From NCBI RefSeq assembly GCF_001541925.1, contig NZ_LQMW01000011.1:1-50740 (forward strand): a stretch of DNA of 50,740 bases, written 5' to 3'. The stretch comes from Nitrosopumilus sp. Nsub. Lineage in GTDB: Archaea; Thermoproteota; Nitrososphaeria; Nitrososphaerales; Nitrosopumilaceae. The notes beneath the pieces are model-generated. The model was given only the letters and a program-made list of their open reading frames with translations. It had not been told where the DNA came from and did not search any database. Shown here in pieces: positions 6,552 to 50,740 of the stretch (position 1 is the first letter of the stretch; each line of letters begins with the position of its first letter). The position numbers and the translations under genes were made by a program.

Positions 6552-7043
6552 TTGAAATTACAAGTTTTGATGTTTTATCAGGATGATCCAAAGAAATGTA
6601 CTGCTGCAAAGATGGTGAAATTTGGCCTTGCTCAAAATATTAAAAAAATTGGTTCAAAAGGACTAGTTTTAGATCCCTTTGCTGAAAAAACTTTACTTCC
6701 AAAAGATTCCTCTATCATTAACTCTGTTGTTGGAATAGATTGTTCTTGGAATCTTGCAAACCATGCATTTTCTCAAAAATTTAATGGAATTAAGAGAAAA
6801 TTGCCTCCTTTGCTTGCAGGAAATCCTGTAAACTATTCAAAATTAAATAAATTAACTACTGCTGAAGCTTTATCTGGTTCTTTATTCATTTTAGGTTTTA
6901 AAGAACAAAGTTTGGAATTATTAAACAAATTCAAGTGGGGTCACACGTTTTATGAGTTGAATCAAAATCTACTAAATGATTACTCTCAATCAGAAACTGA
7001 AGAAGACATTAAGACTATTGTTACAGATTACGGGTTATCTTAA
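6552..7043 (+). CDS. tsr3: Tsr3-type rRNA aminocarboxypropyltransferase
   Basis: Tsr3 transfers the 3-amino-3-carboxypropyl group of SAM onto a modified uridine of small-subunit rRNA. The family hallmarks are all visible: GIDCSWNLANHAF, KRKLPPLLAGNPVNYSKLNKLTTAEALSG (read in two pieces around LPPLLAGNPVNY and TTAEALSGSLF), and FKWGHTFYELN near the end. The 163-residue length is normal for archaeal members. The start is TTG, as in many genes here. It is followed tail to tail by the solute-binding protein gene, with a four-base overlap of stop regions. Confidence 0.93.
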   Translation: MKLQVLMFYQDDPKKCTAAKMVKFGLAQNIKKIGSKGLVLDPFAEKTLLPKDSSIINSVVGIDCSWNLANHAFSQKFNGIKRKLPPLLAGNPVNYSKLNKLTTAEALSGSLFILGFKEQSLELLNKFKWGHTFYELNQNLLNDYSQSETEEDIKTIVTDYGLS

Positions 7044-48427: not shown

Positions 48428-49558
48428 TTATGCAATCTCGTCTCTTAATTTCTTTGTAATTGTTACTTCGATATTATCAAAAACTTCTAACATTTTCTCT
48501 TTATTGTCTATGATGTATTCTTCTCCTCTATCATTTAATCTGATTTTCCATAATCTAATTTCTCTATGTTCCTCAAAGAAATTTTCAATCATTTGTTCTC
48601 CTGATTTTGTTGGATCAATGAATTCTTCGAAAATTGATATGGTTTTATCTATGTCTCCTTCTTCTATTGCTTCTTTTGCTGTTTGAATTGATTCACTCAA
48701 TTTTTTCAAATTTTTAACCGGTCTTGGTAATTTCTTCTTTGTAATTCCAAATAATCCGATTTTTTCTTTACCGATTTTTTCTGCAATATTATCTGCAAGA
48801 TCATAGACTGGAATTTTACTCAATCCGTCACGCTTTTCATTTTGAACAATTAGTCCTTTTTCTAATAATTTTTTTAAAGAAAGTTCTGCATCTGCTTTAT
48901 CTAGAAATGTTGTCCACACAATTGCCCCAAGTGTGTGATATCCTTGCCTCACTGATTCCAACACTACTACTTCTTGAATTCTTTTGAAGCCTTCTTCAAT
49001 TCTTACATTTGCAAAGTCTTTATCTCTAATTGATTTTCTTGCATTTTTAACATCAATTTCAATGGAATGTTTCAAAGCTTGTAATGCTTCTGGAACTTGG
49101 TTTAACAATGACAGGAAACATGCTTTGTTATACCATGCCATGCCATATGTTTTATCTGAATCAATTGCTTTGTTAACTGCATCTAATGCTTGTGCATACT
49201 TCTTTTGTTCATAGTGAACTAGTCCTTTGAGATTCCATGCTTCAGGATTTGTTACATCTACTTCGAGAACTTTATCATATACTTTTAGAGCATCATTGTG
49301 ATTCTCTAGATGGAATTTTGCATATCCTAACTTCATTAAAATTTCAACATTATCTGGTTCAATTCGTAAAGCTTGTTCAAATACTTCGACAGCATCATCT
49401 AATTTTTCATCTGCCATTAAATTAACGCCTTTTTTAAATAATTTTTTAATATTGTAACTTGGATCAACTAGACTAGTTTCTTTTGTAACTATTTTTGCTG
49501 ATTCTTCATCTTTTGATTTTTCTATTTTCTTTTTTTTCTTACCAAACAACTTAATCAT
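48428..49558 (-). CDS. TPR-repeat protein with C-terminal helical/winged region
   Basis: A 376-residue cytoplasmic protein. The first 35 residues are lysine-rich; residues about 37-172 hold four tetratricopeptide repeats (for example KLDDAVEVFEQALRIEPDN, NHNDALKVYDKVLEVD, KKYAQALDAVNKAIDSDK and NQVPEALQALKHSIEID). Residues about 205-300 resemble a winged-helix fold (GYHTLGAIVWTTFLDKADAE, KKLLEKGLIVQNEKRDGLSK), and the tail is helical. It may be an adaptor; no enzyme motif is seen. It is convergent with the rhodanese gene and ends one base after it. The gene's upstream region is shared with the divergent collagen-like gene. Confidence 0.8.
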   Translation of the reverse strand: MIKLFGKKKKKIEKSKDEESAKIVTKETSLVDPSYNIKKLFKKGVNLMADEKLDDAVEVFEQALRIEPDNVEILMKLGYAKFHLENHNDALKVYDKVLEVDVTNPEAWNLKGLVHYEQKKYAQALDAVNKAIDSDKTYGMAWYNKACFLSLLNQVPEALQALKHSIEIDVKNARKSIRDKDFANVRIEEGFKRIQEVVVLESVRQGYHTLGAIVWTTFLDKADAELSLKKLLEKGLIVQNEKRDGLSKIPVYDLADNIAEKIGKEKIGLFGITKKKLPRPVKNLKKLSESIQTAKEAIEEGDIDKTISIFEEFIDPTKSGEQMIENFFEEHREIRLWKIRLNDRGEEYIIDNKEKMLEVFDNIEVTITKKLRDEIA

Positions 49559-49674
49559 CTACGATTATTCTCTAGATAAATACCATCTTAATCCGTATAT
49601 TTTCTTATATTTTCAGGGTTAATTCAAATACGGCGATCCAAATCCTGAAATACTTCAAATTTTAACAAACGATT

Positions 49675-50740
49675 ATGTCTTCTCAATCACGAATAGAAAT
49701 TCAAGGGCAGGCACCTTTTAAACAATCTGGTGTATATGAAGCTCAAATTTCAATAATTGATGTAAAACCCTCTGATGCTGATATTCGTGCTAAAAAATTT
49801 ACTCCTTTATGGAAAGGAGATTTTCATTTAAAAGTAAAAGATGGTGTATTTTCAGAAATATTAGGTGATTCCAAAAACCCTCTTCCTTCATCTGTTGATG
49901 AATTGAATTCTATCTGGATTGTTGTAAATGATTTATTTTCTTCAGTATATTCTGTTTTTGATGTACCTTTAAGAAAATCTTCTGAAATTGTTAAAACTCC
50001 TGAAAAAACCATTGAAAAAACCATTGAAAAAACCATTGAAAAAACTCCTGAAAAAGCTAAATCTAAACGCCCATCAAAAAATATTACAAATTCTGATAAT
50101 GTGGGATCACGAGGTATTCGTGGTCCAAGTGGAGATAAAGGTGAACCTGGTGCAACCGGACCAGCTGGTGACAAAGGTGACAAAGGTCCACACGGTGACA
50201 AAGGTGACAAAGGTCCACACGGTGACAAAGGTGACAAAGGTTCAACTGGTACCACCGGTGACAAAGGTCCAACCGGATTAAAAGGTCCAACCGGCCCAAC
50301 TGGGGAAAAAGGCTCAACCGGATTACCCGGTGACAAAGGAACTTCTGGAATACGTGGTGTTCCTGGAGAAAAAGGTGACAAAGGCCCACAAGGTCCGCCT
50401 GGTGACAAAGGATTAACTGGTCCTGTTGGTGTTCCTGGAGAAAAAGGTCCAACCGGAACTTCTGGAGTTCAAGGAGAAAAAGGAATTCAAGGTTCTCCTG
50501 GACCAATAGGAGAAAAAGGTGTTACTGGACCTGTCGGTGACAAAGGACCTATCGGTCCACCTGGTCCAGTTGGATCTAAAGGATTAACTGGTGTTACTGG
50601 TCCAACAGGAGAAAAAGGTGACAAAGGTCCACTAGGTCCACCCGGTCCTCTTGGTGACAAAGGTAGTAAAGGACCTGATGGTCCAACTGGAGAAAAAGGC
50701 CCACAAGGCCCACAAGGTCCTGCTGGATCTAAAGGATTAA
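49675..50740 (+). CDS. Collagen-like Gly-X-Y protein, truncated by right window edge
   Basis: Starts at the ATG of MSSQSRIEIQGQAPFKQSG and runs off the window with 355 whole codons and no stop. Residues about 1-100 form a globular beta-rich head (VKDGVFSEILGDS near 55 and ELNSIWIVVNDLF near 77), a layout seen in some secreted bacterial and phage-tail-like proteins. A TPEK/TIEK linker follows (residues about 108-127), then from residue 144 an unbroken collagen tract: 70 complete Gly-X-Y triplets, with no interruption, rich in GDK and GEK, whose Lys-Gly-Glu/Asp pairs stabilise triple helices without hydroxyproline. No signal peptide is visible. It is a likely fibrous trimeric protein; location and role are unknown. 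Confidence 0.88.
   Translation, partial: MSSQSRIEIQGQAPFKQSGVYEAQISIIDVKPSDADIRAKKFTPLWKGDFHLKVKDGVFSEILGDSKNPLPSSVDELNSIWIVVNDLFSSVYSVFDVPLRKSSEIVKTPEKTIEKTIEKTIEKTPEKAKSKRPSKNITNSDNVGSRGIRGPSGDKGEPGATGPAGDKGDKGPHGDKGDKGPHGDKGDKGSTGTTGDKGPTGLKGPTGPTGEKGSTGLPGDKGTSGIRGVPGEKGDKGPQGPPGDKGLTGPVGVPGEKGPTGTSGVQGEKGIQGSPGPIGEKGVTGPVGDKGPIGPPGPVGSKGLTGVTGPTGEKGDKGPLGPPGPLGDKGSKGPDGPTGEKGPQGPQGPAGSKGL
49996..50055 (+). repeat. 12-bp tandem repeats in the collagen-like gene linker
   Basis: Five successive 12-bp units; the middle three are identical (ACCATTGAAAAA, encoding TIEK) and the outer two read ACTCCTGAAAAA (TPEK). They form the stalk between the globular head and the collagen tract. Expansion by slippage is likely. 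Confidence 0.85.
50167..50241 (+). repeat. 27-bp tandem repeats within the collagen tract
   Basis: Two perfect 27-bp units encoding GDKGDKGPH are followed by 21 bases of a third. They are the only long identical units in the collagen tract, which otherwise varies in its triplets. Recent local duplication is the simplest reading. Confidence 0.85.

Follow-up and report, generated by a model that had tools for sequence, protein, structure and literature searches.

Collagens are textbook extracellular proteins, and nearly all those studied act outside cells. Collagen-like proteins lacking a signal sequence are already known, both as Burkholderia Bucl1 and Bucl2 (PMC4565658) and as phage fibres, and the majority of collagens in prokaryotes belong to the cell surface (PMC4565658). 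In the Nitrosopumilaceae, the family of marine ammonia-oxidising archaea addressed here, one paper reports an "LPXTG-anchored collagen-like adhesin" of N. chungbukensis, labelled a cell-surface protein, that was detected by proteomics and rises under low salt (PMC13037477). Because the proteins analysed below resemble the NCBIfam model of that name, at scores under its cut-off, this label may denote the same gene. Literature searches outside subscription journals returned no paper describing the gene under a recognisable name.

The window analysed here comprises the entire contig C4 (50,740 nucleotides) of the 1.38-Mb, 26-contig genome of Nitrosopumilus sp. Nsub. It ends within a collagen-like open reading frame that remains open to the last base (Table 1) and that encodes a beta-rich head, a repetitive charged linker and a Gly-X-Y tract. 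Residues 144 to 353 of this frame are exactly 70 consecutive G-X-Y triplets with no break, matching the original prediction of at least 70, and a succession of 70 GGN codons cannot be due to chance. With a cut-off of 27.2 bits, Pfam Collagen (PF01391) gives the frame a score of 122 bits, placing it in that family.

The missing 3' half of the gene was found elsewhere in the assembly, on the minus strand at one end of contig C9, where 63 triplets are followed by the tail GGMSAEQKAIFKELLEILTTKEIINTEEQIKLMSYLY and a stop codon. Across 28 related loci, with few exceptions and some loci cut short, the gene order is THI4-like, sulfite-reductase-like, rhodanese, TPR (divergent), collagen gene, DRG-type GTPase, HAD hydrolase and ArgS. 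The left part of this order lies on C4 and the right part on C9, and since synteny in the related loci joins them, the two contigs carry two halves of one gene. C4 and C9 have a 206-bp stretch in common (94% identity) and C9 contains a further internal repeat (83% identity), so that the assembly most likely broke in near-identical repeats. C9 terminates in 116 nt of non-collagen sequence that has no second copy anywhere in the Nsub genome and is likely an assembly artefact. The 70 triplets on C4 and the 63 on C9 are thus contig parts of the Nsub gene and not its total count. The gene is naturally untruncated, with its 3' half on C9 and a whole open reading frame in relatives; the early stop or frameshift downstream that the original prediction had named as contrary evidence is absent, and the tract runs on to a conserved tail. 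Right after the stop codon, C9 carries about nine tandem A+T-rich units of ~15 bp resembling ATTTTATTTTTTAA.

Table 1. Coordinates of the collagen-like gene and of other features mentioned in the text; positions refer to the window unless another locus is given.
Feature	Position	Strand	Basis or remark
Divergent TPR gene	48428-49558	-	
In-frame TAA stop	49663-49665	+	Four codons 5' of the ATG; from sequence
Collagen-like open reading frame	49675-50740	+	ATG at 49675
N-terminal head domain, ~102 aa, beta-rich, family-specific	49675-49980	+	Homologues, AlphaFold2 model
Charged linker, tandem EKTI/EKTP units	49981-50103	+	Sequence
Gly-X-Y tract, first 70 triplets, cut by contig end	50104-50740	+	Pfam, triplet count
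Tract continuation, 37-aa tail, stop	L009 (C9), ~7420 down to ~6850	-	Collagen frame at contig end
Tandem A+T-rich units	L009 (C9), ~6630-6750		
End of DnaK-like chaperone gene	L018 (Nsub C1), 124213-124338		

Orthologues of the gene are essentially universal in the Nitrosopumilaceae. The head used as a query matched 166 of 200 family genomes, including 111 of the 119 good ones, and was found in 22 of 22 sampled genera; the original prediction would have been weakened by a head lacking homologues in related genomes. A head profile matched 155 of 300 genomes of the class, all of them Nitrosopumilaceae (155 of the 169 genomes of that family), and gave no match in the 131 genomes from other families. 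The 14 Nitrosopumilaceae genomes without a match are drafts of at least 60 contigs, except one of ~30. Searched across the phylum, a tail profile matched 51 genomes, again all Nitrosopumilaceae, and collagen-like proteins outside the family are sporadic (8/41 genomes). The named relatives carrying the gene are almost all Nitrosopumilus and Nitrosarchaeum, in agreement with the archaeal host originally proposed. The gene is mostly present in one copy per genome, with synteny kept and housekeeping-type neighbours in every genus examined. Full-length homologues of the neighbouring TPR gene occur in 14 of the 22 genomes searched from other families, in which the head was not found, and the TPR protein was accordingly rejected as a dedicated partner; it therefore seems that the collagen gene came to lie next to the TPR gene in the Nitrosopumilaceae. 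Two contigs titled Phycisphaerae (L084) and Nitrososphaeraceae (L082) also bear the gene, the latter with archaeal synteny, and are probably mis-binned or mislabelled. In one single-contig genome (G006, L173) the orthologue is broken into several reading frames and its collagen tract contains a stop, reflecting either gene decay or an error in sequencing.

Across many genera, complete orthologues have one architecture in common, consisting of beta-rich head, linker, unbroken tract and helix-turn-helix tail. The tract mostly spans 84-185 perfect triplets, with one copy whose longest run is 22; its modal length is 124 triplets (18 of 59 complete proteins), and 33 of the 59 have 122-126. At 0.286 nm per residue, 124 triplets would measure ~106 nm if helical. 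In the 15 proteins of 124 triplets, identity at X and Y is 62% in register and 15-31% when the sequences are slid by whole triplets, and conservation of the rod increases toward its C-terminal end. Median dN/dS is 0.22 for X and Y codons only and 0.14 for the head, values obtained with a simple counting method on pairs that are not independent. Of the X and Y residues together, 27% are proline, positive and negative residues are in balance at ~40 and ~37, and cysteine is nearly absent from the proteins.

The charges of the rod follow a regular pattern, which differs from the one first proposed. Lys-Gly-Asp/Glu pairs had been suggested to replace hydroxyproline, but Lys/Arg-Gly-Asp/Glu pairs are in fact rarer than in shuffled triplet order (mean 6.7 vs 11.6; depleted in 51 of 52 proteins), and this suggestion is not upheld. 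Charges sit instead within single GDK/GEK triplets, one every fourth triplet. The autocorrelation of G[DE][KR] at lags 4, 8, 12 and 16 is 0.49, 0.42, 0.30 and 0.21, while the window's own tract gives 0.33 at lag 4 and 0.30 at lag 8. In shuffling tests, the four-triplet period of G[DE]K falls under the 1% level for 49 of 52 proteins. This period could have been left by old 12-residue repeat units; its maintenance over the family argues for use, without proving it. Variation in tract length between genera weakens the idea of a strict ruler.

The two end domains are specific to the family. AlphaFold2 models the head, as a monomer, as a beta-rich fold comprising six strands and two short helices (mean pLDDT 88), and the tail is modelled as a helix-turn-helix (core pLDDT 98) ending in an almost invariant C-terminus, TEEQIKLMSYLY. 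Neither the head nor the tail of the window protein has a Pfam match, known collagen trimerisation domains included, and the head fold has no Foldseek match at E <= 0.001 in PDB or BFVD, consistent with the initial view that the head is unlike known domains; its best fold match is weak (SgrA of Enterococcus, TM 0.49, E 0.12). Three other candidate assignments were discarded: the head as a relative of a bacterial collagen-associated beta domain was unsupported in every test, the tail as a SHOCT-like domain had no Pfam match, and the tail as a CARD rested on a single match at 2e-4 in 1 of 14 members, which we took as chance.

Analysis of export signals supported the absence of a signal peptide noted in the original prediction. 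An in-frame stop just 5' of the start excludes a signal peptide in the window protein, and in 75 of 82 loci a stop closes the frame at most 22 codons from the head core. Hydropathy revealed no membrane segment, the most hydrophobic 19-residue window scoring 1.24, and none of the 58 complete proteins contains an LPXTG motif. No secretion genes adjoin the collagen gene in the 28-locus neighbourhood comparison. Two other collagen-like open reading frames of the Nitrosopumilaceae, of 1189 (L169, G098) and 525 aa (L170, G062) and with short Gly-X-Y runs, start with clear Sec-type signals as judged by eye, and so do four from another family of the order (L143, L145, L147 and L151), which indicates that proteins of this kind do leave the cell by the ordinary route. 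Further hits to the collagen model included the end of a DnaK-like chaperone in Nsub, where about seven tandem GADGQQ units preceding TSDSNTSEETKSN score as Pfam Collagen without forming a comparable Gly-X-Y rod, and a 2518-aa open frame (L168, G076:C1:1250929-1255668) with many Pfam Collagen matches that the run filter did not resolve.

The original prediction allowed for either export by an unusual route or an intracellular protein, and this view of its location is upheld. Judging from the sequence features above, we consider it about an even bet (probability roughly 0.5) that the gene product is a cytosolic homotrimeric collagen-like rod serving as a spacer or scaffold. Three identical chains would meet via an end domain, either the beta head or the C-terminal helical hairpin, and would then zip into a single uninterrupted triple helix of ~106 nm. 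Head and tail would bind different partners, and the rod between them would serve as a rigid intracellular spacer or scaffold, extending over about half the cell diameter. A charged triplet each 12 residues (~3.4 nm) might allow rods to pack side by side in register, or might provide a regular ladder of binding sites. In its fullest form, which we put forward tentatively, the proposal is that of a family-wide intracellular collagen with a true triple-helical rod of ~100 nm, functioning as a cytoskeleton-like spacer or register-forming scaffold and equipped with new trimerisation and tail domains.

The main rival to a cytosolic rod is a cell-surface fibre exported without an N-terminal signal, in which the tail or the head would act as an export or anchoring tag. 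The prevalence of surface proteins among prokaryotic collagens points in this direction, as do the low-salt response of the N. chungbukensis adhesin and its presence in the proteome, and the near-invariant C-terminus could be such a tag. The protein, however, carries no signal, transmembrane segment, LPXTG motif or known export domain, its gene stands apart from secretion genes, and other collagen-like proteins of the same family bear ordinary signal peptides; we regard export by this route as possible but rather unlikely. It is improbable that the protein is a low-complexity disordered chain whose Gly-X-Y tract is the product of repeat expansion and forms no helix. The repetitive linker and the local tandem duplications seen as 83-94% identical repeats at the contig ends would fit such an origin, but glycine recurs at every third residue unbroken, X and Y show position-specific conservation, and dN/dS is low.

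More doubtful still is an origin as a domesticated virus tail fibre. Phage fibres commonly contain cytosolic collagen tracts and normally lack a signal peptide, and PHROG tail-fibre models do match the collagen tract. These matches are nevertheless confined to the Gly-X-Y tract, at most with the preceding linker; no relatives of the head or tail were found in the viral contigs searched, and none of the head in the phage records. In each genus examined, the gene also occurs once only and lies among housekeeping genes, with no virus or provirus cluster adjoining it, its neighbours across the family being the sulfite-reductase-like, rhodanese, TPR, DRG-type GTPase, HAD and ArgS genes. Finally, although SclB is the best NCBIfam model for most members scanned, a streptococcal-type Scl LPXTG adhesin is refuted on three defining features, namely the signal peptide, excluded by the upstream stop, the LPXTG motif, and the curated score, which at 126-240 bits (222-240 for complete proteins) falls below the cut-off of 325. 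A collagen tract alone invites the label of LPXTG-anchored adhesin, against which we caution.

If a cytosolic rod is the correct reading, this gene would be a rare instance in which a cytosolic collagen is conserved, here throughout a family of very abundant marine archaea, and its two new small domains may nucleate triple helices and be useful for collagen engineering. What is new here is that a single-copy gene of this kind is conserved throughout the family, that both end domains are unmatched, that the rod is position-specific and that its charges have a 12-residue period.

Compared with known systems, the protein shares with the Pfam Collagen family (PF01391) a long Gly-X-Y tract scoring far over the curated cut-off, but differs in having no convincing Pfam family for its head or tail and no export signal. 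Like Scl1 and Scl2 (NCBIfam NF038330 and NF038329), it has a mixed-charge, hydroxyproline-free tract; those proteins, however, are exported and LPXTG-anchored, whereas the archaeal protein has neither an export signal nor the LPXTG motif and scores under their cut-off. Collagen-like phage tail fibres (PHROG 6320 and others) resemble it in cytosolic synthesis, absence of a signal peptide and possession of a collagen shaft, yet they have no end domains in common with the archaeal protein, whose gene lacks a viral context. The other archaeal Gly-X-Y proteins identified (L143, L145, L147, L151, L169 and L170) differ in their Sec-type signals, shorter tracts and other end domains. The Burkholderia Bucl proteins are likewise prokaryotic and collagen-like, and Bucl1 and Bucl2 also lack a signal sequence, but Bucl tracts are short, differ in length from strain to strain and are built for the most part from one or two kinds of triplet (PMC4565658), whereas the archaeal tract is long, has a mixed triplet composition and shows position-specific conservation.
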